A stretch of 54,169 nucleotides of DNA from a virus: IMG/VR virus record IMGVR_UViG_3300048839_000345, positions 1 through 54,169 of that record; one strand, given 5' to 3'. Each line of letters opens with the position of its first letter. The first letter of the stretch is position 1. Positions 6,173-46,892 of this stretch are shown one piece after another. The notes beneath the pieces are model-generated. The model saw only the letters and a program-made list of their open reading frames with translations, made no database searches and was not told the origin of the DNA. The translations under genes were made by a program, and so were the position numbers.

Positions 6173-8055
6173 TGGCCAAGCTCCCCCGCTCCCCCATAGC
6201 TCAGGACGTCCGGAACAATTACCAGCCGGTGCGCGAAGCGCGCATGAGCGACGTCGATCCTGTCGGCCGTGCCATCGAGGGGGTCGGCGATACCGGGCTT
6301 GAAATTGCCAACCGTATGGCGGACGCGAAGATTGCGTCAGACGCTGCCAAAGCCGAGATCGAACTAACGAACCGGCTGGATCTAGAGCGCCGTGCGCTTG
6401 AGGACGATAACGAGATTGACCCGGCCAGCCTTGAGGCAATGTTTCAGGAGCGAGCCAACAAGGTCGTGTCCGAGATCAGCGGGAACATCACCAGTCCCGC
6501 ATTAAAGCGCGCGTTCGGCAACCAGTCTGCGGCTGTCCTGCAGCGCAACACTATTCAGGTTCGCGACCTGTCTCGCCGCAAGCAGGTAGACATCGCGCGC
6601 GGTGAGTTTGTCACGACTGTCGAAGCATATTCAAAGACCTATGACGAGCCGTCGAATTACCTGCAGGTCGATCCTACGCAGCCGTCGATGGCGCAGGAGC
6701 GCTTGGACAGCCAGAAGTCATTTATCCAGTCGCAGTTTAGGGCGGGCATCATCACGGCTGAGGCTGCGGCAGATCAGACGATCAAGGCGGAGGACGCCTT
6801 TGCAAAGGGTCTTGAACGCAAGCACTTGAATGCGATCGACGCCGCGCTGGACAATGGGGACTATTCCGGCGCTGACTCTTACTTCATGGCCAATTCCGGC
6901 GACTTCACGTCAGAGGAAATGCGGCAGAAGACCCGCGATGTCATCGAGGCCAAGCAGCGCGAAGGCGGGGCGATCACCATTGCCGACGAACTGTGGGACA
7001 AGTCTGGCCAGAATTATGGTGAGTTCCTGAACCTTGTGCGCGATGACCCGCGCATCAAGGATCCCGAAATGCTGCAACGCGTTGAGGGGCGTGGCGGTGT
7101 CCGGCTGAACCAGTACCAGGCAGCTGTCACCGCAAACGATACGGCGCAATGGAACGCCGGCATGGAATACATCACGACTGGCCAGCGCATTCCTGCAAGC
7201 CTGATGCGCGATGCTTCGCCTAAAGTGCGGGATATGTTGCAGGCCGAGCAGAGGCAGCGAGACCTTCATGCCCAGCAGATGGCCACCGCGTCGGCGCAGG
7301 AGAAGGCGGCGATGCGGGAGGTTTCCATGGGGAACTACCGTATCCTAAAGGCCCAGATGGTCAGCGATCCCGAACTCGCACTGCTCGGTGTTGAAGGCAT
7401 CCTGGCCGATCCGAACCTGAGCCGGCTGTGGGAGGGTATGAGCCCTGACGAGCGCGGCCAGTTTGTGCTGGATGCGGCTAATGCCAAAGGCAGCGGCGGC
7501 GCCCCGGCAGACGCTGTCAGCAAGGCCTACAAGTCGGTGGTCAATCTCGCCAGCGCCTACATGCCTGAGAACCTGTCGCCGAAGGATTACGGCAAATATT
7601 TTGACGGGGTTGGCGAGGGCGACGTGGGTGTCGCTTATCTGAGCTCGAACCGGAAAAAGCCAGATACGGCGCTGGTGTTCGAGGGTGAACTCATGCGTCT
7701 CGTGGATGAGGAGATGGCTCGTACCGGCGGGGCTGATATTCAGGCAGACCGTGCCAAGCAGCTGGTGGCGCTGGCCTACGCCAAGGCGGGCGCTGATCCC
7801 AAGACTGGCAAGACCAAGTACCCCATCTCGCAGGACATCGCGGCGGGCGCGGTTCAGACTGACATGCGCCGCATCGCACTGGACTATCGCCGGCAGAATC
7901 CGGCTATCTGGAGCGAGGCTGTTGCAATAGCACGCGGGCAATATCCGAATGCGTCTGAAGCGCTAATCCTTGAAGAAGCGCGCAAACTCGAGCAAAGAAA
8001 TAATTTCCGCCGGGCAACTCAGAACCCGGACCGCTTTGGCAGGGAGGTTGAGTGA
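6172..8055 (+). CDS. Internal virion protein C, T7 gp15-like
   Basis: 627 residues, strongly helical and rich in Ala, Glu, Gln and Lys. It begins KLPRSPIAQDVRNNYQPV and has long amphipathic stretches without strong membrane segments, as expected for the gp15-type tube component of the DNA ejectosome that spans the periplasm. Its start overlaps the upstream stop by one base (TAATG). Its stop overlaps the next small membrane gene (TGATG). Assignment rests on composition, length (T7 gp15 is 747 residues) and position. Confidence 0.75.
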   Translation: MAKLPRSPIAQDVRNNYQPVREARMSDVDPVGRAIEGVGDTGLEIANRMADAKIASDAAKAEIELTNRLDLERRALEDDNEIDPASLEAMFQERANKVVSEISGNITSPALKRAFGNQSAAVLQRNTIQVRDLSRRKQVDIARGEFVTTVEAYSKTYDEPSNYLQVDPTQPSMAQERLDSQKSFIQSQFRAGIITAEAAADQTIKAEDAFAKGLERKHLNAIDAALDNGDYSGADSYFMANSGDFTSEEMRQKTRDVIEAKQREGGAITIADELWDKSGQNYGEFLNLVRDDPRIKDPEMLQRVEGRGGVRLNQYQAAVTANDTAQWNAGMEYITTGQRIPASLMRDASPKVRDMLQAEQRQRDLHAQQMATASAQEKAAMREVSMGNYRILKAQMVSDPELALLGVEGILADPNLSRLWEGMSPDERGQFVLDAANAKGSGGAPADAVSKAYKSVVNLASAYMPENLSPKDYGKYFDGVGEGDVGVAYLSSNRKKPDTALVFEGELMRLVDEEMARTGGADIQADRAKQLVALAYAKAGADPKTGKTKYPISQDIAAGAVQTDMRRIALDYRRQNPAIWSEAVAIARGQYPNASEALILEEARKLEQRNNFRRATQNPDRFGREVE

Positions 8056-14200: not shown

Positions 14201-17200
14201 TCTATGGCGAGTTCGGGCAGCTGACCATGGACCGCTGGCTGATGAGAACCTGGGGCCGGTGGAACGCCACCCTGATCACGGACTATAGCAGGCAGGCGCG
14301 CGAAAGCCGGAAGAAGCTGGGAGCCCTCCTGAAGCTTCTCTCCAACGAAGACAAGCGTGCCCTCGAAAAGATCATCCGCCGACCGATCAAGCTGCGCGAA
14401 ATCGACGAGGTCGGTCTTGCCATTCAGAGGGCGAGCCAGAAGCCTGCTTTGCGCGAAAAGATGAACGAACTGGGCTGGTTTGGTAACGACGAACCATCAG
14501 AGATAACTGATATTCTTGGTCCTTTCCCCAAGGGCAAGCCCCGCAAATCAGTCGGCGCCGAGGTCCGCAAGCGCGGGAACGCGCTCGCCAAGTATCTCGA
14601 CGGCCAAAAAGAGCAGCCGTCTGGCCCACCCGAACGCGCCAAGATCCGCGCTGTTTTTGCGCGTGCGCTTGATAACCTGAAAAACGATTTCCCTACCCTG
14701 ACAATGGCTGACTTGCAGGCGCTGCTGTGGTATCCTGAGAAACGCCTCTATGACACAGCCAAGGCCAAAGAGGGCGAGGAGACCGAAGGTTATGAAGACG
14801 ACGAAGCCCCCGACTACGCCAACGCAGCGCGCAACCTCGTCGTCTCCAAAGGCGTCTCCGAAGCCAGCGTCCGAGACGCCTATGCCCGAATCGATGCCGA
14901 CGTACAGGCCGCTCGACGAGCAGGACGAGTGGAACGAGGAGGCCAGGGACGAAGCGGAGATGGCAGCCTTGGAACTCAAGATGGCGCGCTCCAAGACGAC
15001 ACCCTAGGCCAAGAAGCCGCCCCCACCTTTTACTCCGCCCTCGGGCGTTTCATCGCATCCTCCAACACCGCCCGCGCGCCTGCTGCGCAGTGGAAAGGCA
15101 TGATCTCCAACGCGCCCGGCGTGAAGGCCGAGGAGGTCGAGTGGACCGGCGTGATGGACTGGCTCGACGCGAGCGAGGGGCCGGTGACACGCGAGGCTTT
15201 GGCTGCGTTCGTTGAGGCGAATGGGGTGCGGGTGGAGGAGGTGAGCAAGGGCGGGGCTGGTGCCGCGCCGGCGTTCCAGATTGATGGCGAGTTTAACGTT
15301 CCTGCTATTCGTGACGCCATTGGTCGTGCGCTCCGCGATGGCGCAACGGATTACGGCGATCTTCAAATGAACCTTGAAAACGATGGCGACTTTTACCGCT
15401 ACATGGAGCGCTCTTATCCTGAGTATTTTGAGGAAGATGAAGCAGATTCCGGACGCCTTGCCGAGCGCGTGCTTGAGGACGCCGAAGTCAACTTTGGCGC
15501 GGCCACTAAATTTGAATCTTATGTTCTGCCTGGCGGGACAGGGTATACTGAACTGCTGCTGACAATACCAAAAGTGCGCGGTCCAGAGACGCACTGGGAT
15601 GAAGATAGCGTTGTTGCGCATACTCGCTTCAAGGAGCGCACTGGCCCGAACGGCGAGCGTGTTCTGGCGCTGGAGGAGATCCAATCGGATTGGCACCAAC
15701 AGGGGCGTGAGGATGGCTATGAGCAGACTGTTGATCCCCAAGTGGCGGAGGACGCAAGAGCGGCATTTGAAAAGGCGCGCATTGAACGCAATGCAGCTGA
15801 TAAAGCCATACTCGACTTCATTGCCGAAATGGAAAAGCCAGACTTGCGGACCCTCTTCGAGGCGATCTACTGGGGATCCAGCCGAGACAGCGCATTTTTC
15901 GATGATCTGGTTGAGTCCGTATACGCCACAGCAGATTTCAGAAACCTGACCGAACAGCAACAGCAATTGATTCGCCGACGCGGACTGCAAGAATTGCGCA
16001 TGAATTACACTGGCTTCTCGAAAGAAGCCCGCGCTCAGATTTCTGAGCTTGGCGCAAATTTTGATGCAGCGCAGTTGCGTTTCACGGAAGCCGACACTGC
16101 CTATATGAATGCGGCCTATCCGGGAGGCGTCCCCAACGCCCCCTTCAAAAACAACGCATGGGCCAACCTCGTCCTTAAGCGGATGATCCGGTACGCAGCG
16201 GAGAACGGCTTCGACGCGGTGGCGTGGATACCGGGCAATGTGCAGAATGGCCAGATCGTCGAGGACACAGGCGACAATCGCGGCGACTTCTACGACAAGA
16301 TCGTGCCGAACCTGGCGAGCAAGCTGGGGAAGAAGTATGGGGCAAAGGTGGGGCGGATGCCGCTCGACGCTGCCACACGGGACGAAGGCAATCGCCGCCT
16401 TGGCTATGAAGTCGTTGACGAAAACGGCGACCAGTACGATTCCTTCGATACCATTCAGGCTGCGCAGCAAGCCGCTGAGGATGCTGGCCCCGGCTATGCT
16501 GTGCGCGGTCTGGGCGCGCCGCCGGTCATGTTCCACTCCCTCCCCATCACCCCCGAACTCGCCGCCGCCGCGATGACCGAAGGCTTCCCATTGTTCCAGC
16601 GCGGCGACCCCAAAGGCTGGGGCGAAACAGCCCCGCCGCCAGACCTGCCGCCCATGCGCCTCGACCTTGAGGCAGTGCGCGAACTCTATGGTGAGGACGC
16701 TGTCCGCCGCCTGCCCAAGCCGATCCGCGACCGCTCCCGCGACAAGACCAGCATCGACGGCATGATGGACATCATCCGCGCGAACGTGAAGACGTTGAAG
16801 CGCAAGCCGCCCATGACGCTGTTCCAGTACATCCGGTCCCGCAAGGCGCGTACCGTGGCGGGCCAGACCGTGCCGATCAAGAAGTGGGGCATCAAGGGCG
16901 CGGCTGACGAACTAAAAGCCATGAACCGCGAAGACCTGATCAACGAAACGAACGGCATTCATATCGACTATGTCCGCGAGTCGGCGGCCGAGGCGGGCTA
17001 CCTGCCAGAGGACGCCACGCTCAACGACTTCCTGAACGCCATCGATCGTGAGGCGCGGGGCGAGCCGGTCTACAGCCGGTTTGACCAGAAGGAAGTCGAG
17101 GACCAGCGCTTCGCCAAGGAGTGGGCTGACTGGCTGGACAGTCAGGGCGTGGACATGTTCGAGGCGAACCAGAAGAAGCTGAAGGCTGAAATCGCCAAGA

Positions 17201-32621: not shown

Positions 32622-33272
32622 TCAAAGCGCCTTCGCCCCAGCCTCGATAAAATCCACAATCCGCAACGCCTCGGCCCGATACGTAGGCGAAGTCTCGGTC
32701 TGACAATGCGTGCGAGCCTGGCTGATTGCATCCTCTCCTATCCACGTCCGGCACCCGGCCTTGATGGCCATCCCTCCGAGCACGGATGTCCATGCGAAGT
32801 ATTCATATCCATCAGCACGTGTAGCGCGGGCGATGAGGATGAGCCCTCCGAGGTTCGCGCCTCCGAGGTCCGCGCCTTCGAGGACCGCGCCTCCGAGGTT
32901 CGCGCCTCCGAGGTCCGCGCCTTCGAGGACCGCGCCTCCGAGGTTCGCGCCTCCGAGGTCCGCGCCTTCGAGGTTCGCGCCTTCGAGGTCCGCGCCTCCG
33001 AGGTTCGCGCCTCCGAGGTTCGCGCCTTCGAGGTACGCGCCTTCGAGGTACGCGCCTCCGAGGTTCGCGCCTCCGAGGTTCGCGCCTCCGAGGTCCGCGC
33101 CTCCGAGGTCCGCGCCTCCGAGGTTCGCGCCTTCGAGGTTCGCGCCTGTCTTGAAGGCCCACTTAACTGCCAGCCCAAGCTTAAGGTAATAGCTGGCGTA
33201 TTCATCGCACTCGATTTCGGCAGTGATCTGCACGGCGCCGGTGAAGCGGTTTTTGATCTTAAAGAGTTCCAT
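32622..33272 (-). CDS. Pentapeptide-repeat protein
   Basis: 216 residues. Residues about 43-142 are about 20 pentapeptides of the form A(N/D/Y/V)L(G/E)G, predicting a right-handed quadrilateral beta helix of roughly five coils. A short N-terminal cap includes [13 protein letters not shown]. The C-terminal domain (about 143-216) holds two Cys and a helix. Members such as MfpA and Qnr mimic DNA and bind gyrase, but many others have unrelated or unknown roles. The middle position is unusually often Gly or Glu. It lies in the early accessory operon. Confidence 0.85.
32847..33146. repeat. 15-bp tandem repeats coding pentapeptides
   Basis: About 20 near-identical 15-bp units with the core ctccgaggttcgcgc, coding the pentapeptides on the minus strand. 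Because each unit is short and biased, several other frames on both strands stay open across the array; those are not separate genes. The near identity of the units suggests recent slippage or recombination. Confidence 0.9.
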
Positions 33273-34009: not shown

Positions 34010-34333
34010 TTAGGAGGCGCGTTTCGACAGGTCCGCAAGCGTGGAAAGAATAGCGATTGCTTTAGGCTTGTCAGCGTCCGGAATGGCGTCCCAGATTGAC
34101 CAGATAGCAGACGGCTGGGACGGGTCGCGCATGATAAGGTCTGCCGGTTCGCAACGCAGGGCATAGGCTGCGGCCTCAAGAAAGCCCTGCGAATACTCCT
34201 GCTTTCCACTCTCTATCTTTGATATGGCCGTTCGGTCCACATCCAGCCGGGATGCTAATTGTTCTTGGGTCAGGCCCCGATAACGACGCCACTCTTTGAT
34301 AAAGTGCCTGCGCGGCTGAGATGTCTTGCTCAT
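34010..34333 (-). CDS. XRE-family repressor (CI-like)
   Basis: 107 residues with a classical HTH at about 12-66: LTQEQLASRLDVDRTAISKIESGKQ. The C-terminal part is short with no peptidase (LexA/CI) domain, so induction by RecA cleavage is unlikely. It is divergent from the Cro-like gene at 34429. Its own TATAAT (plus 34373-34378) has a palindrome gcacaatgtgc between -10 and -35, which points to autoregulation. Good evidence for a switch, although no integrase is found. Confidence 0.8.
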   Translation of the reverse strand: MSKTSQPRRHFIKEWRRYRGLTQEQLASRLDVDRTAISKIESGKQEYSQGFLEAAAYALRCEPADLIMRDPSQPSAIWSIWDAIPDADKPKAIAILSTLADLSKRAS

Positions 34334-34372
34334 ACCGCCATTGTCCGCCTGTGGCCGCTGATGCTCTATAGC

Positions 34373-34418
34373 ATTATACGCACAATGTGCTTGACAGTCA
34401 CTGTGCGCTTATAGCACA
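34373..34418. promoter_or_regulatory. Divergent switch promoters with operators
   Basis: Minus strand: TATAAT (plus 34373-34378) with a weak GTGACT -35, driving the repressor. Plus strand: TTGACA at 34391-34396 toward the Cro-like gene, with only a weak -10 near 34410. Operators: the perfect palindrome gcacaatgtgc (34380-34390) and cactgtgcg-N5-agcaca (34399-34418), the latter shared with 33949-33968. A further actgtgc half site lies at 34420-34426. Confidence 0.65.
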
Positions 34419-34428
34419 AACTGTGCCT

Positions 34429-34647
34429 ATGACGCTCCCTGATTACATGACCCAGTTCGGCATGACCGACGACCGCGCCGCCGAAATCTTCGGCTACGAC
34501 CGCACAACCATCTCTCGTCTACGCAGGGGCATCCTAACCCCGTCATACGAAAAGATGATGGCAATTCAGGACATCACCCACGGGGCGGTGACCGTTGAAA
34601 GCTGGTCTGCACTGAAAGCGGCTCGCGCCAAGGCAGGTGCGGTATGA
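34429..34647 (+). CDS. Cro-like HTH protein
   Basis: 72 residues with MTDDRAAEIFGYDRTTISRL forming the helix-turn-helix (about 12-32), and a short helical tail. It starts at ATG 34429 directly after an operator half site with no Shine-Dalgarno, so the message may be leaderless. Divergent from the repressor and first in the replication operon, it probably antagonises the repressor to favour lytic growth. Confidence 0.7.
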   Translation: MTLPDYMTQFGMTDDRAAEIFGYDRTTISRLRRGILTPSYEKMMAIQDITHGAVTVESWSALKAARAKAGAV

Positions 34648-36642: not shown

Positions 36643-37579
36643 AATCAAATCTCCCACTGCTCTCGCCATGGATGCGGCACGCGAGGCAGCCCAGATGTCG
36701 CGTGATGGTTACAGGATACCTGCCTCGGGCATGGGTCTCGAATGCGACCGGGCCCTTTGGTATGGCTTCCGGTGGGTGACCCCACCCAAGAAGTTCGAGG
36801 GACAGATGCTGCGCCTCTTCGAGGACGGCAATCTTGGCGAAGACCAGATGGTGCGTGACCTACGCGCCGCCGGGTATGCCGTGGTGGATCGCGACGACAA
36901 CGGCAAGCAGTTGGGTGTCAGTTTTGCGGATGGGCATGGGTTCGGTTATCTCGACGGCGAGATTGCGGGCATCCCAGAAGCGCCGTCCACGGTACATGTG
37001 CTTGAAATCAAGACGCACAAGGCTGAGAGCTGGAGGGCAGTGAAGAAGCGCGGGGTGGCGGCGAAGAAGCCCGATCACGTTACCCAGATGACGCTCTACA
37101 TGCACAAGCGGGGGCGGACACGGGCACTCTACGTCTACAAGAACAAGGACAATTCCGAAGTCGAGACGCAGCGCATAGAGTACGACGCGGCTGAGGGCGC
37201 CCGCATCGAAGCCCGCGCCGAACGCATTGCATTTGCCGACCGACCACCGGGCAAGTTGCACGAGGATCCGGAAACCAAAGCGGCATTTACCTGCAGGTTT
37301 TGTGATCACCTGGCCGTCTGCCATCAGGGGCAGGCATCGCGTCGCAATTGCCGAACCTGTATCTACGTGACGCCGGTGCGCGGCGGCAAGTGGGTTTGCG
37401 ACCGAGCCAATCATGAACTTGATCGCGAGGCGCAGGGCAGGGCGTGCGAGCATCACCTTCTGATTCCTGACCTCGTGAACGGGCAGCAGGTCGATGCCGA
37501 CATCGAGGCGGGCTGGATCGACTACGCCATGCCAGACGGCACGACCTGGCGCGATGTGGCGGGAGGCGGGCATGGTTGA
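36626..37579 (+). CDS. PD-(D/E)XK exonuclease, Cas4/RecB-like
   Basis: 317 residues from ATG 36626 with GGGAGG upstream. GYLDGEI (D110) and LEIKTHK (E127, K129) give the D-ExK core. The Gln/Tyr-rich helix HVTQMTLYMHKRG matches the QxxxY motif. A Cys cluster follows (TCRFC at 222-226, AVC at 233, then NCRTC and WVCDR), probably a 4Fe-4S site. In phages this class makes 3' single strands for annealing. It overlaps the helicase gene by 8 bp. Confidence 0.85.
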   Translation: MVALPEIKSPTALAMDAAREAAQMSRDGYRIPASGMGLECDRALWYGFRWVTPPKKFEGQMLRLFEDGNLGEDQMVRDLRAAGYAVVDRDDNGKQLGVSFADGHGFGYLDGEIAGIPEAPSTVHVLEIKTHKAESWRAVKKRGVAAKKPDHVTQMTLYMHKRGRTRALYVYKNKDNSEVETQRIEYDAAEGARIEARAERIAFADRPPGKLHEDPETKAAFTCRFCDHLAVCHQGQASRRNCRTCIYVTPVRGGKWVCDRANHELDREAQGRACEHHLLIPDLVNGQQVDADIEAGWIDYAMPDGTTWRDVAGGGHG

Positions 37580-39188
37580 GCTTCGCCCCTACCAGGAAGA
37601 GGCCATTGAGGCGGTGTTCAAATACTGGCGTGAAGAGGGGGGAAACCCCCTCATCGAACTGGCCACCGGCCTCGGCAAGTCACTCGTGGTGGCGGAAGTG
37701 GCGCGGCGCCTACTGCGCGACTTCCCGGCCATGCGGATCATTATGGTTGTGCACGTGCGCGAGCTGGTACAGCAGAACTTTCAGGAACTGCTCCGGCTTT
37801 GGCCGGACGCGCCGGTCGGCATCTACTCTGCCGGCCTCGGCCAGCGCGACACCCATCACCGGATCATCTACGCCTCGATCCAGTCAGTGTTTAAGAAGGC
37901 GGAGATGTTCTCGCCCCGCCACTTGATTCTGATCGATGAGGCGCATCTCGTGCCGCAAGAAGGCGAGGGGATGTACCGCACCTTCATCGACGGGCTGCGC
38001 GTCCACTATCCCGGCCTTCGAATCCTCGGCCTGACCGCCACGCCCTACCGTCTCGATAGTGGGCGTCTGGACCAGGGCGAGGGGCGCCTTTTTGACCGGA
38101 TCGTGCACTCATATGGCATCGGTCCGGGCACGGAAGCGGGGTTTCTGTCACCGCTGACAGCCCGGAATGGCGCCGTCGAGATCGACGTGGCCGGGGTGGA
38201 GAAGCGGGGCGGAGAGTTTGTGCCGTCTGCTCTCAACCATGCCGCCAACCAGGCGGACATCGTGGCAGCTGCGTGCGATGACATCATCGAACGAGGGCAG
38301 GACCGCAAGTCATGGCTGGCGTTTTGTTCCGGCATCGATCACGCTCATGCTGTCGCTGACGCTCTGCGGGAGCGGGGTATCAGTGCGGCGACCGTCACCG
38401 GCAACACACCGAAGGATGAGCGCGATCGGATCATTGCCGACTTTAAGGCAGGGAAGATCAGGGCTCTGACCAATGCGCAGGTGCTGACCACCGGATTCAA
38501 TGCACCGGGCGTGGACTTGATCGCCCTGATGCGCCCGACGCTCTCCACTGGCCTCTACGTCCAGATGATGGGCCGGGGCACGCGCCTGTCGCAAGGCAAG
38601 GAGAACTGCCTTGTGCTGGACTACGCCGGCAACGTCCGGCGCCACGGCCCCGTCGATGCGATCCACATCAAGGACTCGAAGAAGCGGGGCGAAGCGCAGG
38701 AAGGCAAGGTAGATGTAGGCGAGGTTCGGGCGAAGGAGTGCCCGGACTGCAATGCCATCGTCTATATCAGCGTGCGGACTTGTCCCGATTGCGGGCATGA
38801 GTTTGGCGAGCCGAAGCACTCCACCCGCGCCGAAGACGTGGCCGTCATGACGCGGGAACTGCGCGACCTATGGATCCCCGTCACCAGCTGGCGGGCGCGC
38901 GCCTGGCACAAGATGAATGATCCGGACGCCCCGCCTACCATGCGGGTCGATACCTTTGCCGGTGTCACAGAGATCTCTGAGTGGGTCGCCTTTGAGCATG
39001 TTGGGTTTGCCAGATCGAAGGCGGCGAGGTGGTGGATAGACCACGGCGGCGACCTTCCGGTTCCCATCAGCGTCGAGGAAGCGTTGGCGAGGTTTCCGAC
39101 ACTTCGCACCCCGGCATCCATCACGTTGGCGAGGGACGGCAAATACACGCGCATCGACAAGCGCCGGTTCGAGGGAGCAGCCGCATGA
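37572..39188 (+). CDS. SF2 DEAD/DEAH-type helicase
   Basis: 538 residues from ATG 37572. Motif I ATGLGKS (31-37), motif II DEAH (122-125), motif III TATP, and motif VI QMMGRGTR are all readable. A four-Cys zinc ribbon (CPDC near 390 and CPDC near 404) follows the helicase core, and the C-terminal about 120 residues are a separate Trp-rich domain. Likely an ATP-dependent translocase acting in replication or branch processing, working with the adjacent nuclease and primase. Confidence 0.9.
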   Translation: MVELRPYQEEAIEAVFKYWREEGGNPLIELATGLGKSLVVAEVARRLLRDFPAMRIIMVVHVRELVQQNFQELLRLWPDAPVGIYSAGLGQRDTHHRIIYASIQSVFKKAEMFSPRHLILIDEAHLVPQEGEGMYRTFIDGLRVHYPGLRILGLTATPYRLDSGRLDQGEGRLFDRIVHSYGIGPGTEAGFLSPLTARNGAVEIDVAGVEKRGGEFVPSALNHAANQADIVAAACDDIIERGQDRKSWLAFCSGIDHAHAVADALRERGISAATVTGNTPKDERDRIIADFKAGKIRALTNAQVLTTGFNAPGVDLIALMRPTLSTGLYVQMMGRGTRLSQGKENCLVLDYAGNVRRHGPVDAIHIKDSKKRGEAQEGKVDVGEVRAKECPDCNAIVYISVRTCPDCGHEFGEPKHSTRAEDVAVMTRELRDLWIPVTSWRARAWHKMNDPDAPPTMRVDTFAGVTEISEWVAFEHVGFARSKAARWWIDHGGDLPVPISVEEALARFPTLRTPASITLARDGKYTRIDKRRFEGAAA

Positions 39189-39535
39189 TCCACGATCTTG
39201 AAAAGCCAAAGGCGGCAACCGGGCCGGGTCTGTGCGCTGTCTGCGGAGCAGAGGGCGGGCCGGTGAGCGTCGGCGGGCATATCTGCTGCGGCGATCCACG
39301 CTGCATCTCCGTCGCCCTGCACTGGGTCACTGTCGGCTATCCGAGCGGCACCTTCTACGAGCGTGAAGCTATCAGGCTGGGCGGCAAGGCGGGGGGCAAG
39401 TTCCTGACCGAAGCCGGCCAGACCGATATGGCGCGCCTCTCCCGTGAGCAGTGGGAAGAGTTCCTTGTCCGCATCCTGACCACGTATCGCACCGAGCTTC
39501 GCCGCCTTGGCGAAGAGAACGCGCCGCCATTCTGA
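39185..39535 (+). CDS. DUF6511-type zinc protein
   Basis: 116 residues, ATGA-coupled to the helicase. CAVCG near 18-22 and ICCGDPRC near 37-44 form a likely zinc site. The C-terminal FLTEAGQTDMARLSREQWEE motif and following helix match the family usually named DUF6511, common between helicase and primase genes in such phages. The function is not established. Confidence 0.65.
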   Translation: MIHDLEKPKAATGPGLCAVCGAEGGPVSVGGHICCGDPRCISVALHWVTVGYPSGTFYEREAIRLGGKAGGKFLTEAGQTDMARLSREQWEEFLVRILTTYRTELRRLGEENAPPF

Positions 39536-39551
39536 AGGGGGCCTGGGGCTC

Positions 39552-41882
39552 ATGACAACGAAAACAATGTCCGCCTATGCCGCTTCGGCGAGCAAACTGA
39601 TCGACCTTGGCTACCATGTCGTGCCGATTGAGGCGCGCAATAAGCGCCCCGCCCAAAAGGTGGGGAGCAGCTGGGAGATGATGACCGAGTGGCAAAGGTT
39701 CCGCGACCTGATGCCAACTGAAATCCAGCACGAAATCTGGTCGTCCTATTCCGAGTGCAATATCGGCATCGTGCTGGGCTCGAAGGTGGGCGAGCATGAG
39801 CAGGTGATCGCCATCGACATCGACCTGACCGATCATGATGAGGTCGAGGAAGTCCGCGGCGCGCTTCCCTTCACTCCCATGGCCAAGAAGGGGGCGAAGG
39901 GGGTGACGCTGTTCTACCGGGCAGATGAGGAGATAACCACTCGGGTCTACCGGCGCGACGACAAGAACATCCTCGAAGTGCTGACCGGCCGCGACACCCG
40001 CCAGACGGTTGTGCCGCCATCGGTGCATCCAGACGGCCCTGTCTATCAGTGGATCGGACCAGGGCCGGTGCCCCCGCATAATCTGCCTTTCATCGAAGCC
40101 GACCAGCTCGCCGCGATGGAAGAGACGCTGCAGTCGATCGGCTGGGACCGTGACGGGCATGAGCGCGCCAAACGCCGCGAGCGTCTTGGCATTCGCGCTG
40201 TTGAGCCGGGGGAGTGGGATATTTCCTCGCCCTTCATGGACCTCAACCAAACCGCCCTGACCCGTCTCAGCGACTGGGTGCCTGATCTTGATTCCATCGG
40301 GCGTCTCAGACCTGCGCGACTGGGCTATGAGGGGGTGCCGCTCTGGCGGGCTGGCGGGTCCGGCAATCCGCCCGAAAAGCGGAAGCGGAACCTCTCCATC
40401 CAGCCAGTCGGGATCAAGGACTGGGGGACGGACGAGACGTTCTCCGCCCTCGACCTCATCATGCGGGCGTTCGGAATCAATCTCGACGCTGCCTATAAAT
40501 GGCTCGCCGGGCGCCTCGGCCTTGATGATGGCCCCGCCATCATCCTGCGGGAAAAACCAGAGGAAGGAAATCACCCCGATCCTGCGGCAGATGATGAGTA
40601 TCTGGAGGAAGAAGAGGGGGAAAGCGACTCGGTGGAATTTGCCGGGCTGACGCCGGACCTGTGTTTTCCGCCCGGCCTCGTCGGCACCATCGCCCGATGG
40701 ATTAATGACAGCGCGATCAAGCCTCAGCCCGCCCTTGCCCTCGCCGCTTCGCTCTGCGTGGTGGGGACGGCCATGGGGCGGCAATATGCCGGACCAACCC
40801 GAACGGGCTCGCACATCTACGCCCTCGGGATAGCCCCGACAGGCGCGGGCAAGGATCACGCCCTGCAGGCGACCAAACGGATCCTGACAGCTTCCGGCAT
40901 GGGGCAGCACCTCGGGCCGGGCGAGTTCATATCCTCGACCGCTGTGATCAATTTTATGACCCGTTCGCCGCTTGGCTTTTGCGCGATGGATGAGTTCGGT
41001 GCCTTCATGGCCCGCATTAATTCTCGCAAGGCAGGGGGGTTTGAGAAAGCGGTTGGGGCAATCCTGCGTACAGCATGGGGATCTAGCTTTTCGCCCATGC
41101 CAACACCGGAGTGGGCACAGAAGCGCTCGACCCTCATTCATGCGCCGGCGCTGAGCCTTTATGGCACCTCTACGCCGGAGGAGTTCTTCGGGGCGCTCAG
41201 CGGGCTGGACACGTCCAACGGCATCCTGAACCGCTTCCTGATCTTCCCCAGCCTTGTTCGCCCGAACGCTGTGGAGCCGACTGCCAGCCTCGATCATGTG
41301 CCGCACGCGATCATTGAGGGGCTGAAGCTCATCATGCACGGGCAGGGTGGGCTGGTGGCGACAAACCTCAACCAGGCCGACGCCGATCCTGCCGCTTTCA
41401 TGCTGAAGTGTGAGTGGGGTGCCGGCGCGCGGGCGATGTACCAGGCATACTTGTCGGAAGTGGAGGGTAAGTCGGACGGCGATCCCGAGTTCGCCGCCTT
41501 CCATTCCAGGGCCGCAGAGTATGCCCAGCGCCTTGCCTTCATTCGCGCTGTCGGGCGCAAGGGCGGGCTGGCAGAGGTCGAGCAGGGGGATATGGCGTGG
41601 GGCATCGAGATTGCCCGCCACTGCTTCTCCTACGCGCTTGAGGCAGGCCGGGACTATATCGCCGACACGGAAGCCCAGGCACGAGCCCAAGAGATCCTGC
41701 GGGCCATCAAGGGCCGGCGGGGGAAGGTTTCTCACCGGCAGCTTATGGAAGCGCTCAAGCACCGCTACTCAACGCGGGACGCAAAGGACGCGCTTGACGC
41801 CCTGCACCAGTCAGGGGCAATCGAGGTGCACGAGAAGCCCAACATCAGGGGCAGGCCAACCTACTTTTACAGCCTTCCATGA
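39552..41882 (+). CDS. Primase-polymerase / helicase fusion
   Basis: 776 residues. The N-terminus (about 1-200) is an archaeo-eukaryotic prim-pol domain: VVPIEARNKRP, NIGIVLGS, D-x-D at D89/D91, and a GRDTRQTVVPPSVHPDG phrase. A middle acidic linker precedes a DUF3987-like AAA helicase domain with Walker A IAPTGAGK (427-434) and CAMDEFGAF as Walker B. The C-terminus has a winged-helix-like end. It probably unwinds and primes the phage origin. No phage replicative polymerase is present, so host polymerase would extend. Confidence 0.85.
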   Translation: MTTKTMSAYAASASKLIDLGYHVVPIEARNKRPAQKVGSSWEMMTEWQRFRDLMPTEIQHEIWSSYSECNIGIVLGSKVGEHEQVIAIDIDLTDHDEVEEVRGALPFTPMAKKGAKGVTLFYRADEEITTRVYRRDDKNILEVLTGRDTRQTVVPPSVHPDGPVYQWIGPGPVPPHNLPFIEADQLAAMEETLQSIGWDRDGHERAKRRERLGIRAVEPGEWDISSPFMDLNQTALTRLSDWVPDLDSIGRLRPARLGYEGVPLWRAGGSGNPPEKRKRNLSIQPVGIKDWGTDETFSALDLIMRAFGINLDAAYKWLAGRLGLDDGPAIILREKPEEGNHPDPAADDEYLEEEEGESDSVEFAGLTPDLCFPPGLVGTIARWINDSAIKPQPALALAASLCVVGTAMGRQYAGPTRTGSHIYALGIAPTGAGKDHALQATKRILTASGMGQHLGPGEFISSTAVINFMTRSPLGFCAMDEFGAFMARINSRKAGGFEKAVGAILRTAWGSSFSPMPTPEWAQKRSTLIHAPALSLYGTSTPEEFFGALSGLDTSNGILNRFLIFPSLVRPNAVEPTASLDHVPHAIIEGLKLIMHGQGGLVATNLNQADADPAAFMLKCEWGAGARAMYQAYLSEVEGKSDGDPEFAAFHSRAAEYAQRLAFIRAVGRKGGLAEVEQGDMAWGIEIARHCFSYALEAGRDYIADTEAQARAQEILRAIKGRRGKVSHRQLMEALKHRYSTRDAKDALDALHQSGAIEVHEKPNIRGRPTYFYSLP

Positions 41883-41890
41883 AGCTCAAA

Positions 41891-41917
41891 CCCCGGCCCG
41901 AAAAGCCGGGGTTTTTT
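41891..41917 (+). terminator. Rho-independent terminator of replication operon
   Basis: ccccggc (41891-41897) / gccgggg (41905-41911) with a 7-nt loop is followed by six T. It lies 8 nt after the primase stop and ends the replication operon just before the origin-like region. Confidence 0.9.
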
Positions 41918-41930
41918 CTTGTCTATAAGT

Positions 41931-42177
41931 GCGACGATAACCGCGATTTGGGACATCGCAGTTATCGCACTTATGGCTCCATAACTGCGATATTTGATCG
42001 CGGTTATCGTCGCGGTTTATTCCCCAGTAAACACTACAGGATAGGGCATAAATAATAATTGCGATGTGTTGTTTTGAGTATGACTGATTAAGGCGAGATT
42101 GTGGCAAGATTTATTGCTATTCGATGCGAATTTTCTCTAGGGGGGCTAACACGTATCGCAATTATCGCAGTTATCGA
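41931..42177. other. Candidate replication origin with TTATCG iterons
   Basis: The gap 41918-42286 has no gene. It holds a perfect 17-bp inverted repeat, gcgacgataaccgcgat (41931-41947) with its complement at 41997-42013. Inside it is a perfect 11-bp inverted repeat, atcgcagttat (41955-41965) with ataactgcgat (41981-41991). A third cluster at 42155-42177 carries atcgcaattatcgcagttat. All share ATCGC(A/G)(A/G)TTATCG, which contains a DnaA-box-like TTATC. The part between (about 42020-42140) is AT-rich. A DnaA-IV-like protein is encoded 1.6 kb downstream. Confidence 0.65.
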
Positions 42178-42262
42178 TTTTGCCTTGCCCGCCAGCCCCC
42201 TCTGTGGCACTTTTCCTGCTGTGATGACTGACGCCGATTAGAGCGAACGCATCTCCCCAGCA

Positions 42263-42284
42263 CGGGCTCCAACCAGGGAGCCCG
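42263..42284 (+). promoter_or_regulatory. Hairpin that buries the ribosome site of the GcrA-like gene
   Basis: cgggctcc (42263-42270) pairs perfectly with ggagcccg (42277-42284), and the Shine-Dalgarno AGGGAG lies within its right arm, 3-7 nt before ATG 42287. Translation may depend on opening of this stem. It also resembles a terminator stem but has no T-run. Confidence 0.5.
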
Positions 42285-42286
42285 AA

Positions 42287-42685
42287 ATGAATACGACCCA
42301 AGACCTGCCTCACTTCCGTAACTGGTCGCCAGAGCAGGTGCGCCTCGTCCGCGATATGTGGGCAGACGGCGAGACCTCATCCGACATCGCCCAACACCTG
42401 CGCGGCAAGTCCCGCTCGGCCGTGATCGGCATCATCAACCGCGCCGGGTTCAAGCGCCGGGCTGGGGTTCCAAACCGGACCCAGCCTCGCGGACCTAAGC
42501 TGCATGTGGTCAGCCGGGGGCCGGGTTCGCGGGGTGGACCCAAGCCGAGCCGGAAGCCCGAGTCCGTCCGCAAGATGATTGCCACGAAGTGGGCGCTCAG
42601 TGGTGACTCCGCGCCCATCACGCTGGCCGGCCCGGTGTGGAGCCTGCCGGCGAATGCGCGGCCTGCCGAGCGGAGGGCTGCCTGA
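42287..42685 (+). CDS. gcrA: GcrA-family cell-cycle regulator homologue
   Basis: 132 residues. Residues about 13-57, WSPEQVRLVRDMWADGETSS then DIAQHLRG and SRSAVIGIINRAGFKRR, match the N-terminal DNA-binding domain of GcrA (W-x-x-E-V, SxxIA, SRNAVIGKxHR). The rest is a basic Pro/Gly-rich linker and a short C-terminus. In Caulobacter, GcrA binds sigma-70 RNA polymerase and activates promoters with GANTC sites methylated by CcrM. A phage copy could redirect host RNA polymerase or S-phase genes. Confidence 0.8.
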   Translation: MNTTQDLPHFRNWSPEQVRLVRDMWADGETSSDIAQHLRGKSRSAVIGIINRAGFKRRAGVPNRTQPRGPKLHVVSRGPGSRGGPKPSRKPESVRKMIATKWALSGDSAPITLAGPVWSLPANARPAERRAA

Positions 42686-43062
42686 TGCCCGCCCCCCACC
42701 GCAACTACCTCGCCGACGCCGCGCGCCTTGCCCGGCTCAAGGCGCACCTGCAGGTCGGCGGCTCGCGGTACAGCTTCGCCAAGGCCGAGGGCATCTCGCG
42801 CCAGGCCCTGCAGGACTGGCTCGCTCGTCGCCCGGACTATGAGCGCCAGCTGGCAGGGTATGACCGGGGGCACAAGTCGGCGCCTGTTGTGGGCGCCCGG
42901 TTCTGGGCAAGGGTGGAGGCCGTCCGGCGCCGCAAGGACGAGGGCCTGCAATGGGACCGCGCCGCCTACCCCCTCGGAATTACCGAGAAGGCGCTGAAGC
43001 AGTGGTACTACCTGCACCGGGAGACGGTGGACGGGCTGATCGCTGAGCGGAGGGCGGCGTGA
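42685..43062 (+). CDS. Small HTH-containing protein
   Basis: 125 residues, TGATG-coupled to the GcrA-like gene. Two helix-turn-helix-like segments are visible: KAEGISRQALQDWLARRPDY (about 49-68) and YPLGITEKALKQWYYL (about 96-111). The start is basic. It could be a DNA-binding regulator or packaging-related protein. No family is recognised. Confidence 0.6.
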   Translation: MPAPHRNYLADAARLARLKAHLQVGGSRYSFAKAEGISRQALQDWLARRPDYERQLAGYDRGHKSAPVVGARFWARVEAVRRRKDEGLQWDRAAYPLGITEKALKQWYYLHRETVDGLIAERRAA

Positions 43063-43241
43063 TGCTGGAGACCTGCCGGCGGGGCAAACACGTCAACCGG
43101 ATGGTGATGCGGGTCAATCGCGACACGACCGGGCACAAGCATCACGAAGAGTGGCACATCTGCCGCTTCTGCAAGCACGAGCGGCGACATCGCGTCGTGC
43201 GGATCGTCTCCGAGGCGGATGCGATCAGGGGGAGGCGGTGA
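43062..43241 (+). CDS. 59-residue zinc-finger-like protein
   Basis: It starts at ATG 43062 in a TGATG overlap with the preceding stop. Contains one Cys near the start (LETCRRGKH), a His-rich stretch and CRFCKHERRHR, enough for one Cys/His zinc site. Strongly basic. Probably nucleic-acid binding; no family is recognised. Confidence 0.55.
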   Translation: MLETCRRGKHVNRMVMRVNRDTTGHKHHEEWHICRFCKHERRHRVVRIVSEADAIRGRR

Positions 43242-43242
43242 G

Positions 43243-43431
43243 ATGAACCGCGGCGAACCCCTGACCTGGGGCATCACGATCGAGACGACCGGCGCCCAGT
43301 GGACCGTGCAGCTTGCCGGATCGCAGGCCCCCGACTGGTTCTTCGACACATGGGACGAGCTGACCGAGTGGCTGGAGGACCAGCACGAGGGGTGGATGAT
43401 TTCACGGATGGGAGGGCAGTCCAATGGCTGA
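43243..43431 (+). CDS. 62-residue hypothetical protein
   Basis: Start ATG 43243 with GGGGGAGG in front. Acidic and Trp-rich (PDWFFDTWDELTEWLEDQHE); the first half is beta-like. No family is recognised. It overlaps the next gene by 8 bp within the same small-gene operon. Confidence 0.55.
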   Translation: MNRGEPLTWGITIETTGAQWTVQLAGSQAPDWFFDTWDELTEWLEDQHEGWMISRMGGQSNG

Positions 43432-43828
43432 CACCGACACAGACGACCAGACGCACGCCGACACCACTCAGGCCCTCATCGACGCGCAGCAGGAAGCACG
43501 CGCCGCGCTCAAGGCTGAGGATCACCGCGCCGACCTGCGCAAGCTGGCTGATCTGACCAATGAGATGCTGGCGATGAAGGCCACCTATGACGAGGTCCAG
43601 GCCCGCATTGACGCCCGGGAGAAGGTCTACTCCGACCGCGAGGAGGCGCTCAGCGCGCACCTTGCCTCAAAACGGGGCCAGAATGGCGGCCTGAGGCCCA
43701 TCGGCGAGGTGGCCGCTGGGGTGGTAGCGGAAGCGCAAGAAGCCGCTCCACGGCGCTCTGAGCGCGTTTTTGAGGGGCATGCCGCGAATTGTGCGGTTGG
43801 ATTTGGGGAGGCGTGTGATTGCCAATGA
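43424..43828 (+). CDS. Coiled-coil hypothetical protein
   Basis: 134 residues. Acidic start, a long amphipathic coil (about 15-80, with heptads of Ala/Leu), then an Ala/Val stretch and a C-terminus with Cys/His (HAANCAVGFGEACDC). The late Cys cluster could bind metal. ATGA-coupled to the DnaA-IV-like gene. No family is recognised. Confidence 0.55.
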   Translation: MADTDTDDQTHADTTQALIDAQQEARAALKAEDHRADLRKLADLTNEMLAMKATYDEVQARIDAREKVYSDREEALSAHLASKRGQNGGLRPIGEVAAGVVAEAQEAAPRRSERVFEGHAANCAVGFGEACDCQ

Positions 43829-44505
43829 GGCCAGCAAGCTACTCCCGCCCCATCAAAGCCGCCCCCGCCGGCCTCGCCACGGTCATCGAGATCGCCATCC
43901 AGTATGGCCTGTCTGCCGAAGCGCTACGCGGGCGGTCACGCGACCGCCGCGTCTGCAAGGCGCGTGTTGAGGCGATGATTGTCCTGCAGGAACAAGGCAA
44001 AAGCCTGGAATGGATTGGGGCATTTTTCGGAGGCCGCGACCGATCGACTGTGCAACGCCTTATTTCTTATGAGAAAAATAAGCAAAAAAATGTTGCATTA
44101 TATATACAACATCCCGAACTGGTCCACGAAGTCGAGGCCCAGATGCGCCGCATCACGGGCATGAACCTTGCCCACCAGGTCGCGCATAAACTCTCCATCC
44201 CCACATGGCAGGCTATATTCCTCGGTATCTTGATGGAGGCTTATCCGCTCGTGAAGACGTCCGAACAACTGCTTGAAGCCTATGAAGCAGCGCGCGAGCG
44301 TCTGTACCAGGACGACCCCGGACAGGTGCAGGACACGCAGATCCGTTCTTTCAGCCACCACATCCGCAAGGCGTTCGGCGCGATGGGCCTGCCTGATCCC
44401 GTCGCCGCTGTCCGGCCGCGCGGCATGGTGCTGACCTATGAGGCGGCTCTATGGCTGCACAATCAATTCGGCAAGCCGCTGATTTTGACGCAGGTGGCGT
44501 CATGA
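43825..44505 (+). CDS. DnaA domain IV-like DNA-binding protein
   Basis: 226 residues. Residues about 20-80 match the DnaA C-terminal DNA-binding domain. The helix before IGAFFGGRDRSTVQRLI (64-80) aligns with the DnaA signature IGxxFGGRDHSTV, with R73 in place of His. The rest (about 85-226) is helical, lacks an AAA ATPase core and is unrelated to DnaA as far as I can see. It probably binds DnaA-box-like sites such as the TTATCG repeats near 42 kb, either to initiate phage replication or to compete with host DnaA. Confidence 0.7.
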   Translation: MRPASYSRPIKAAPAGLATVIEIAIQYGLSAEALRGRSRDRRVCKARVEAMIVLQEQGKSLEWIGAFFGGRDRSTVQRLISYEKNKQKNVALYIQHPELVHEVEAQMRRITGMNLAHQVAHKLSIPTWQAIFLGILMEAYPLVKTSEQLLEAYEAARERLYQDDPGQVQDTQIRSFSHHIRKAFGAMGLPDPVAAVRPRGMVLTYEAALWLHNQFGKPLILTQVAS

Positions 44506-44894
44506 CCCCCCGCATCATCCCTGTATCGCCAAAGACCAAGCGCGAACTGCCGCTGATCATTCAGCGCCACGTTCATCGCGCCGGCCCGCCTCATGGCTAT
44601 GCGGGCAAGACCGCGAACGCTTACGACGCTTTTGTCACCGGCTTTGCGCGAGACATGGCGTCTGCCTCCGTGCTGCCCGTCACTGAGGTCCGCATGGAGG
44701 AGATGGAATACCAGCACTCCATCATGGATGCCGGCACGCCCATATTTCCGAACGGCTATCCCGTGATTGGCATTTACCTCAACGGCCTTCTGGCCGGCAT
44801 TACCGGCATTTCGTTTGAGGGCTCGCGCTGCACGTTCCGTCAGGCTGAGACCAGGACGGCGATGTTTATATTGGATCGGGGAGGCAAAACGTGA
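44502..44894 (+). CDS. Hypothetical protein before terminase
   Basis: 130 residues, ATGA-coupled. The middle has a two-Met-Glu motif RMEEMEYQHSIMDAGTP, and the C-terminal beta part reads GYPVIGIYLNGLLAGITGIS. No family is recognised. Position between the DnaA-IV-like and terminase genes does not reveal its role. Confidence 0.55.
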   Translation: MTPRIIPVSPKTKRELPLIIQRHVHRAGPPHGYAGKTANAYDAFVTGFARDMASASVLPVTEVRMEEMEYQHSIMDAGTPIFPNGYPVIGIYLNGLLAGITGISFEGSRCTFRQAETRTAMFILDRGGKT

Positions 44895-45295
44895 CCGATC
44901 TGACCGACAAGCAGTTAAGGTTTGTTCTGGAGTACATGATCGATAACAACGGGACGCAGGCGGCGATCCGGGCTGGCTACAGCCCCAACACCGCTGAAAG
45001 TCAGGCATGCCGCTTGTTAAGAAATGCAAAGGTTCGTGCCGAAGTCGAAAAACGCAAGCAACGCGTGGCTGAGAGCTTGGAGATTGACCTGAAATGGCTG
45101 ATCCGGGAAGCAGCAGAAGTTTATAAGGCAGCCAAGGATGACGCCGCCTACGGTCCCGCGTTTGTTGGCATCAAAGAGCTTAGCATCCTGACCGGCAATC
45201 GTATCGAGAAGCAGGAAACGACTGTCATATCGCACGAGGACCGTCTGGCCAGCGTCAGGGAGCGTGTGAATGAGCGCCGCCCAACAACTCACTGA
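44891..45295 (+). CDS. terS: Terminase small subunit
   Basis: 134 residues from a GTG start overlapping the previous stop (GTGA). LTDKQLRFVLEYMIDNNGTQ then AAIRAGYSPNTAESQACRLL (together about 4-43) is the classic N-terminal HTH of the Terminase_2 family. The C-terminal helices serve oligomerisation. It recognises the packaging site and hands DNA to the large subunit, whose gene overlaps by 26 bp. Confidence 0.9.
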   Translation: MTDLTDKQLRFVLEYMIDNNGTQAAIRAGYSPNTAESQACRLLRNAKVRAEVEKRKQRVAESLEIDLKWLIREAAEVYKAAKDDAAYGPAFVGIKELSILTGNRIEKQETTVISHEDRLASVRERVNERRPTTH

Positions 45296-46892
45296 CGAGG
45301 AATACGAGCGCATCCTCATGGATGACGAATTGTATTTTGAGTGCTGCCTGCAGATCCGTACCAAGAGCGATGGCTTGCAGGCTCTCTTGCTGAACTCGTC
45401 GCAGCGCTATGCACATGAGCGCATCAACGACCAGCTGCGCGAGACAGGCAAGGTGCGCGTGCTGATCCTCAAGGGGCGCCAGCAAGGCATATCCACTTAT
45501 GTCGGCGGCCGGTTTTACAAGAAGGTCTCGACGTCTACCGGCGTCCTGGCCTTTATCGTGACGCACGAGGACGCGGCGACGCAGAACCTTTTCGGCATGA
45601 CGAAGCGGTATCACGACAACAACTTGCCCGACTTCAAGCCCGAGACCGGCGTGGCCAATGCCAACGAACTCAAGTTCTCCAGGCTCGATAGCGGTTATAA
45701 GATTGCCACCGCCGGCGCGCGATCGGCTGGCCGCTCCAATACGATCCAGTTCCTGCATGCGTCGGAGTTCGACTTTTGGCCCGACGCCAGCGCCTCCGAA
45801 GTATGGAAGGGCCTGGCCGAAGCTGTGCCTGACGAGGATGGCACTGAGATCATCATCGAAAGCACGGCGGACAAGCCGGGCGGCCGGTTTCACCGCGCCT
45901 GGATGGCTGCAAAGAAGGGCGAGTCGGGCTACATGGCCCTGTTCATCCCGTGGTTCCTGCACGAGGAATACTGCAAGGAACCCCCTGATGGCTGGCATCC
46001 TCCGCAGGCGTTTGGGGAATACATGGTCCTGCACGGCTTGCGCATCGACCAGCTTTATTGGGCGTGGGACAAAAACCGGGCGATGGCGATGCTTGACGGC
46101 CTCGGCTCTGACGAGTTCTGCGTAGGGTTCAAGCGCGAGTATCCCGCAACGGACGAGGAAGCCTTCGAGGAGGCCGGTGACGAACTGAGCCGCGCCATCC
46201 CGATGGCCTGGATCAAGGCAGCGCAGGCCAGATGGATCGCCAACCGCAATCGACCCAAAGGCCCTATGACCGGGTTGGGCGTAGACGTGGCGCAAGGCGG
46301 GCCAGACAACACGGTCGTGACGCCCGTTTATGGGGTGCGGGTCGAGGAGCAGACCAAGCTGCCAGGCCACGCTACGACTGATGGTCCGGCAGTAGCTGGC
46401 ATGGTGGTTGCTCTGGTCCGTGACGGCGCGACAATCGGCATCGACATGGGCGGCGGCTGGGGCGGTGATGCGCACACGCACCTGAAGAAGCATCTCGACA
46501 TGCCGGTGATCGGCGTGAACCCATCGTCAGCTGCAACAGCCCGCGCCAAGCATGGCAATTACCAGTTTATCAACATGCGCGCCTACATGCATTGGATGTT
46601 GCGCGAGAGCCTGAACCCGATCACGGGCGACAATGTCGAATTGCCGCCCGATGAGGAGCTGGCGCAAGACCTAGCCGCGCCGACCTATGAGATCACGCGC
46701 ACTGGCATCAAGATCGAGAGCAAGGACGAGATCAAGAAGCGACTGGGGCGCTCGCCTGACAAGGGTGATAGCTGCCTCTTGGGATGGTACGCGTCTCTGC
46801 CCGGCAACCGCTCACTGGCTAAGGCGGCGCAGATACGGGGCAATCAACCGTCAGTCATCCCCCACCGCAGTAGGATCATCGGCAGAAAGTAA
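45270..46892 (+). CDS. terL: Terminase large subunit
   Basis: 540 residues. Walker A LKGRQQGIST (67-76), Walker B FLHASEFDFW with E166 as likely catalytic Glu, and nuclease Asp in LGVDVAQGG (D339) and IGIDMGGGW (D392) are visible in the expected order. It drives ATP-dependent packaging and cuts concatemers. SD AGGGAGCG precedes the start inside the small-subunit gene. Confidence 0.9.
   Translation: MSAAQQLTDEEYERILMDDELYFECCLQIRTKSDGLQALLLNSSQRYAHERINDQLRETGKVRVLILKGRQQGISTYVGGRFYKKVSTSTGVLAFIVTHEDAATQNLFGMTKRYHDNNLPDFKPETGVANANELKFSRLDSGYKIATAGARSAGRSNTIQFLHASEFDFWPDASASEVWKGLAEAVPDEDGTEIIIESTADKPGGRFHRAWMAAKKGESGYMALFIPWFLHEEYCKEPPDGWHPPQAFGEYMVLHGLRIDQLYWAWDKNRAMAMLDGLGSDEFCVGFKREYPATDEEAFEEAGDELSRAIPMAWIKAAQARWIANRNRPKGPMTGLGVDVAQGGPDNTVVTPVYGVRVEEQTKLPGHATTDGPAVAGMVVALVRDGATIGIDMGGGWGGDAHTHLKKHLDMPVIGVNPSSAATARAKHGNYQFINMRAYMHWMLRESLNPITGDNVELPPDEELAQDLAAPTYEITRTGIKIESKDEIKKRLGRSPDKGDSCLLGWYASLPGNRSLAKAAQIRGNQPSVIPHRSRIIGRK

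Follow-up and report, generated by a model that had tools for sequence, protein, structure and literature searches.

Does the DNA around 42 kb of the virus record IMGVR_UViG_3300048839_000345 encode one phage system aimed at the host cell cycle, or do separate systems meet there? The record is 54,169 bases long, and this whole stretch is called the window here. A cluster of inverted repeats (41925 to 42177) lies directly upstream of an operon that encodes a GcrA-like protein (42287 to 42685) and a protein resembling domain IV of DnaA (43825 to 44505; DnaA-IV-like). An earlier note on this DNA had read these parts as one phage system that couples an origin to both proteins and redirects the timing of host replication and transcription; in that reading, the repeats are bound by the DnaA-like protein. 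We moderately favor a different explanation with two adjacent, separable modules, a replicon with its own origin (37494 to 42177) and a regulator operon, running from 42287 into the terminase genes, that would time late genes. Feature coordinates are given in Table 1, and compared viral records are designated by L numbers.

The repeats are real and clustered, as the earlier note had stated. All five exact copies of ATCGC(A/G)(A/G)TTATCG in the window lie within 41935 to 42176. With up to two mismatches allowed, there were 15 matches versus 4.3 expected, a number reached in none of 100 shuffles, and 8 of the 15 sit in the 250-bp stretch after the primase gene described below. The roughly 370 bp between the terminator of the upstream operon and 42287, which contain the repeats, have no plausible gene. 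The core unit, TCGC(A/G)GTTAT, occurs in both orientations and in places as 9-bp tandems, and the inverted arms at 41931 to 41947 and 41997 to 42013 pair perfectly over 17 bp. The single-strand DNA fold of 41919 to 42018 has an energy of -31.2 kcal/mol (z of -7.7 versus shuffles), and among 2163 window segments the 110-nucleotide one at 41926 ranks first for self-folding. Stem pairing and paired protein sites predict the same covariation, which therefore cannot tell whether a stem-loop is extruded or the sites are simply inverted targets for a protein. The idea that the repeats contain a DnaA-box-like TTATC did not survive: TTATNCACA at one mismatch is not enriched in the window (15 matches versus 14.8 expected), and these matches include no copy of the repeat. 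We therefore rejected the repeats as DnaA boxes.

The gene directly upstream of the repeats (39552 to 41882) encodes a primase-polymerase (Prim-Pol; PF09250, E = 6.4e-18), contrary to the earlier statement that the operon stands without a phage polymerase. This 776-amino-acid protein follows a RusA-like resolvase, a Cas4-like exonuclease, and a helicase in an early operon that runs rightward from 34.7 kb. Its C-terminal half matches PHROG 3022 DNA primase (E = 1e-68); the matches to this half were to PHROG DNA primase/helicase families only, and Pfam gave no helicase match. Modeling places, with moderate confidence, a winged helix at the C terminus, and Foldseek matched this domain to winged helices, including Orc1 and Rpa2-WH. 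Genome scans found no relatives of the primase in bacterial genomes.

This arrangement resembles that of the crenarchaeal plasmid pRN1, whose experimentally defined origin lies 3' of ORF904, the Prim-Pol gene; there, a terminator is followed by an approximately 100-bp stem-loop that is needed for replication (PMC4234260). A pRN1-type origin has also been proposed for phage BIP-1 (PMC4234260). Both pRN1 and the window have a Prim-Pol with a C-terminal winged helix (predicted in the window) and, 3' of its gene, a terminator and then a stem-loop of about 100 nucleotides at a distance of about 45 to 55 nucleotides; the structure is conserved, and the sequence is not. Because the anatomy matches, we read 41925 to 42177 as probably the phage replication origin and the primase as the likeliest initiator to bind the repeats. 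By this analogy, the pRN1-type origin, which follows a Prim-Pol gene on its 3' side, is the closest known case. Unlike in pRN1, the arms in the window are copies of a 10-bp site that also occurs outside the stem-loop and is swapped between close relatives, whereas pRN1 is reported to be without iterons; the superfamily 3 helicase match of the pRN1 type was also not obtained for the window protein. The apparent origin of the earlier note is thus retained as an origin-like element, but it belongs to the upstream replication gene and not to the GcrA and DnaA genes.

In the proposed replicon, the Prim-Pol/helicase gene and the terminator would be followed by an origin of about nine 10-bp sites, in both orientations, that could extrude the stem-loop of about 100 nucleotides. 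The C-terminal winged helix of the primase, or a partner of the primase, would bind the sites, open the DNA, and prime, and the swapping of the site sequence among related phages would give each replicon its own specificity. A second likeness is to the alpha protein of phage P4, which has a Toprim-type primase, unlike the archaeo-eukaryotic Prim-Pol of the window; this comparison draws partly on general knowledge. P4 alpha is a primase/helicase whose C-terminal winged helix binds the ori/crr origin repeats (PMC4234260), whereas binding by the window protein is only proposed. The outcome is a precise, testable origin proposed for Prim-Pol phages of alphaproteobacteria.

Comparison with other phages indicates that the repeats are tied to the replication gene, because the architecture is kept where the motif has changed and because arrays occur in phages without GcrA. 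The window primase is 91% identical in L005 and 86% identical in L006, and aligning these records with the window showed that the terminator, flanks, and site positions are kept, with TGACGGTTAT as the unit instead of TCGC(A/G)GTTAT. L028 has an operon like that of the window (GcrA-like gene, small genes, DnaA-like gene at 58% identity, and terminase large subunit [TerL] at 84%), a different replication gene, and GGGTTGCCC repeats; the motif thus differs between the window and L028 despite their common operon. L030 has an L028-type replication gene (78% over the available part) and GGGTTGCAC repeats. Rhizobium phage RHph_TM3_3_14B and Sinorhizobium phage AP-16-3, whose primases are 26 to 27% identical to that of the window, carry TTTGGAATTGC arrays directly after the primase gene, and their annotation shows no GcrA gene next to the arrays. 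In RHph_TM3_3_14B, this stretch 3' of the primase is at about 40.27 to 40.5 kb of the record. Further arrays 3' of the primase are found in Synechococcus phage Ssp-JY40, Loktanella phage pCB2051-A, and Sphingomonas phage Lucius. Arrays exist, then, in phages with neither regulator gene alongside, and neither a tie of the repeats to the DnaA-like or GcrA-like protein nor one to the GcrA operon is supported. A search of viral contigs for the window repeat pattern returned matches at chance level or in other contexts, none of them adjoining a primase. The naturally specificity-swapped pairs (window versus L005/L006 and L028 versus L030) open the initiator-site code to domain swaps. In pCB2051-A (L175, approximately 6350 to 6490), a very long perfect inverted repeat, TTGTTGACCAATCCTTAGCCGTCGAAC...GTTCGACGGCTAAGGATTGGTCAACAA, lies 3' of the primase gene.

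The repeats might instead serve as operators for the promoter of the operon, with the GcrA-like protein or another phage regulator as their binder, and not as an origin. They do stand immediately before the regulator operon, with the distal tandem pair about 110 bp ahead of its first gene, and phage operators too change specificity among relatives. We nevertheless consider this unlikely, as repeats keep this place behind the primase where the next gene encodes a nuclease or a hypothetical protein, and L005 and L006 have a common motif, yet the L006 GcrA recognition region is nearer that of the window. The gap between the CI and Cro genes of the window and of L005 also holds no copies. The last two observations led us to reject the GcrA-like protein and CI/Cro, respectively, as repeat binders, and the CI/Cro genes differ between L005 and L006 though the motif is common to both.

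Several results weigh against the 41925 to 42177 element as an origin or against the primase as its binder. The GC skew, a check suggested in the earlier note, makes no turn at 42 kb and was uninformative. The stem-loop is the rank 1 foldable segment in the window, L005, L006, L016, L018, L028, and L030, which represent three lineages (the scored segment includes the terminator hairpin in some of these seven records), but these are only 7 of the 20 replication genes inspected. Several Prim-Pol phages, such as NV1.1.1 and CRP-901, are without a 3' array, and in Pseudoalteromonas phage C7 the array is 5' of the primase, not 3'. The recognition helix of the primase hardly varies among the window, L005, and L006 despite their differing sites. 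The window-specific changes Q730, E733, and K736 fall within or shortly behind the helix preceding the recognition helix, and their clustering is weak (hypergeometric 0.046, from three sequences with the region picked post hoc). The covariation between this winged helix and the repeat site is suggestive only.

Both regulator domains named in the earlier note are present, and both genes are in one operon. Small overlapping or abutting open reading frames (ORFs) run from 42287 to the terminase small subunit (TerS) gene at 44891 and the gene at 45270, which we take to encode TerL from its place after TerS and from general knowledge; together they form a single tightly packed operon. PF07750 (GcrA) matched the 42287 to 42685 product with an E value of 6.9e-10 and 40 bits versus a cut-off of 26.9, over profile positions 2 to 65 of 155 only, and there was no PF07750 match past position 65 for the sigma-70-interacting half. 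A three-sequence GcrA-like profile matched PDB entries 7ye1 (E = 1.6e-11) and 5yiu (E = 2.8e-9), both confined to the DNA-binding half, and ten aligned GcrA-like proteins have in common this half and, toward the C terminus, the short motif I(T/S)LAGP(A/V)WS. The lack of the sigma-binding half cannot be blamed on the model, because the GcrAs of Caulobacter phage DMCA (positions 3 to 152) and phage Ssp-JY42 (3 to 153), the positive controls, match it almost fully. The phiCbK-like phages also encode GcrA (PMC3556154). A GcrA-family DNA-binding domain in a phage is common to these phages, DMCA, Ssp-JY42, and the window; unlike in the window, the DMCA and Ssp-JY42 proteins extend over nearly the whole family model.

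In the DnaA-IV-like protein, PF08299 (Bac_DnaA_C) matched with an E value of 1.5e-11 and 44.6 bits versus a cut-off of 31.5. The first nine PDB matches of the AlphaFold N-terminal domain in Foldseek are DnaA domain IV structures (1j1v and 3pvp, probability 1.00), and the C-terminal domain may be winged-helix-like, with low model confidence. Only domain IV was matched above the cut-off in this 226-amino-acid product; the AAA+ ATPase domains I to III of DnaA were not. Within the two-domain DnaA-like family, the DnaA-box contact motif RDHTT appears as RDRST, RSRKT, or RTPGA (in the signature variants GGRDRSTV, GGRSRKTV, and GNRTPGAV) and is not conserved, with the contact positions taken from PMC9638019 and general knowledge. 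At 1e-5, neither this protein nor the GcrA-like protein matched anything in the collection of isolated phages, and no close relative of the window was found among isolated phages.

GcrA-type and DnaA-IV-type genes occur together in the window, L024/L025, L028, L031 to L033, and the isolated phage Ssp-JY42. The pairing, which spans four lineages from metagenomes plus one isolated phage, is real; of the trio that the earlier note proposed to look for in related phages, the two genes recur together, and the repeats change independently of the pair. No DnaA-IV gene was recognized in L030 up to the terminase, and the L005, L006, L026, and L027 contigs end too early to judge its presence. The recurring pair, the reality of both domains, and the position of the DnaA-IV gene closely after replication genes in L024 and L031 to L033 are what a system redirecting the host would have in its favor. 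We find such a system very unlikely, since the repeats occur without GcrA/DnaA-like genes and change independently of them, there are no DnaA boxes, the GcrA sigma-binding half is missing, and the contact residues vary inside the DnaA-like family. On the last two points, host cell-cycle mimicry is not supported either, and GcrA or DnaA domains in a phage are not alone a sign of host cell-cycle control.

DnaA domain IV is an origin-binding fold, and the DnaA-IV-like protein could act at the origin with the primase as a second initiator or helicase loader. We give this little credence: the DnaA-IV gene of Rhizobium phage RHph_N28_2 does come after a DUF1376 gene, but L005, L006, RHph_TM3_3_14B, and AP-16-3 have repeats and no DnaA-IV gene in the available or annotated neighborhood (the L005 and L006 contigs end early). 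In each of the four phages having it (window, L028, L015, and L003), the two-domain gene sits shortly before the terminase genes, and its product has two DNA-binding-type domains, so it might serve packaging by binding a pac or cos site with TerS, with no transcription control. This too is improbable, as no known terminase accessory with a DnaA-IV-like fold was found in this analysis and the DnaA-IV genes of L024, L031, and RHph_N28_2 are not beside the terminase.

Control of late genes is the most likely task for the second module because the operon forms a single unit with the terminase. In this module, small DNA-binding proteins built on a GcrA-type domain, DnaA domain IV, and other helix-turn-helix folds would activate the packaging and late genes of the phage itself or set their timing, as do GafA and GafY, the DnaA-IV-like activators of gene transfer agents (GTAs). 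We propose this role tentatively, from position and analogy, and hold it somewhat short of probable. GafA has a DnaA-IV-like N-terminal domain (PMC6363796) and binds upstream of TerS (PMC9638019, which also describes its DnaA-like domain), and GafY contacts RpoD (PMC11150451). The GafA and GafYZ activators have a DnaA-IV-like N terminus joined to another domain, as does the window protein; they act on the promoter before the terminase, and the window protein is comparable in this by gene position only. GafA and GafZ have a DUF6456/sigma-like C-terminal half, unlike the window, where PF20057 was not found; gp38 of the Roseobacter phage RDJL Phi 1 matches PF20057. The window protein also gave no profile match to GafA of RDJL Phi 1, which counts against the parallel. 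By sequence, the window protein is not a GafA, and the GTA activators may be regarded as its closest functional parallel. The shuffling together of GcrA- and DnaA-type DNA-binding domains in pre-terminase operons bears on the origin of the GTA DnaA-like activators. We regard as rather unlikely a further idea, in which the sigma-less GcrA-type and DnaA-IV-type proteins form a recurrent cassette that acts jointly on phage promoters right after the origin; replicon passage or activity, and possibly GANTC methylation, would switch late genes, making a replication-to-packaging timer from host cell-cycle domains.

The hairpin around the first Shine-Dalgarno sequence of the operon is kept in the window, L005, L006, L024, L026, L028, and L030, with one-sided changes only, and the gene behind it varies, encoding GcrA, DnaA-IV, or another helix-turn-helix protein. 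A counterpart of the 42685 to 43062 product, 43% identical, is encoded directly before GcrA in L026. A further DNA-binding-type protein follows the GcrA-like gene in L005 (10291 to 10683), L024 (5309 to 5701), L026 (5309 to 5704), and L028 (5324 to 5737); it is possibly an OmpR-like winged helix, with a very weak Trans_reg_C match in L026 only.

Table 1. Coordinates of features in the window
Feature	Coordinates	Strand	Basis
Superfamily 2 helicase (ResIII/DEAD), replication operon	37494..39188	+	Pfam ResIII E 4e-22; PHROG 16 DNA helicase E 4e-101
Primase-polymerase/helicase, 776 amino acids, proposed origin initiator	39552..41882	+	PF09250 Prim-Pol E 6.4e-18
Predicted winged-helix domain at primase C terminus (about residues 709-776), candidate repeat binder	41676..41879	+	AlphaFold predicted local distance difference test (pLDDT) 77-88
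Intrinsic terminator at end of replication operon	41888..41914	+	10-bp stem and T tract; conserved in L005, L006
Nested inverted repeats/stem-loop, proposed origin core	41925..42015	.	17-bp arms; fold energy; rank 1/2163 segments
Repeat unit TCGC(A/G)GTTAT	41937..41946	-	Exact copy
Repeat unit TCGC(A/G)GTTAT	41956..41965	+	Exact copy; next unit at 41965, 9 bp on
Repeat unit TCGC(A/G)GTTAT	41981..41990	-	Exact copy
Repeat unit TCGC(A/G)GTTAT	41998..42007	+	Exact copy
Repeat unit with one mismatch	42055..42064	-	TCGCAATTAT
Distal pair of repeat units in tandem (9-bp period)	42156..42174	+	TCGCAATTAT at 42156, TCGCAGTTAT at 42165
Hairpin CGGGCTCC-AACCAG-GGAGCCCG enclosing Shine-Dalgarno GGAG of first operon gene	42263..42284	+	In 7/7 phages compared
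GcrA-type DNA-binding protein, sigma-binding half undetectable	42287..42685	+	PF07750 positions 2-65/155
Helix-turn-helix protein	42685..43062	+	Weak YdaS_toxin match E 6e-4, below cut-off
Small operon protein, unknown	43062..43241	+	Homologous small ORF in L028 operon
Small operon protein, unknown	43243..43431	+	Homologous small ORF in L028 operon
Small operon protein, unknown	43424..43828	+	ORF; weak Snf7-like match below cut-off only
Two-domain DnaA-IV-like protein	43825..44505	+	PF08299; AlphaFold model; Foldseek; 56-57% identical in L028, L003, L015
Terminase small subunit, GcrA/DnaA-IV operon	44891..45295	+	PF03592 E 3e-25
Terminase large subunit (presumed), same operon as TerS	45270..46892	+	84% identical in L015, L028, adjoining their DnaA-like genes

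The host is probably an alphaproteobacterium. The site methylated by CcrM, GANTC, occurs about four times less often in the window than expected (50 sites versus 191 to 231 expected), which fits an alphaproteobacterial host having CcrM and is no proof of one. RDJL Phi 1 (L023, 50 kb) has 1 GANTC site versus 186 expected, and L031 and L033 have 0 and 1, respectively. The GcrA cell cycle regulator acts at promoters with methylated GANTC. The operon promoter region of the window contains no GANTC; L005, L024, L026, and L030 each have one in a promoter-like spacer. In these four relatives (at approximately 9878 in L005 and 4643 in L024), a TTGACG promoter-like box is followed by GANTC in the -35/-10 spacer before the operon; they otherwise avoid GANTC, and the window is without the TTGACG-GANTC arrangement.

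Elsewhere in the window, a single ORF of 3971 amino acids occupies 8239 to 20154, and its final 970 or so residues match PHROG 9880 (function unknown). A pentapeptide-repeat protein encoded on the minus strand at 32622 to 33272, close to the CI/Cro genes, is the strongest DNA repeat cluster in the window, and L006 has a repeat-rich ORF at a similar place. The CI/Cro-like pair (window 34010 to 34647, L005 1077 to 1702, and L006 2416 to 3036) differs among these three phages with 86 to 91% identical replication genes, a difference typical of an immunity swap.

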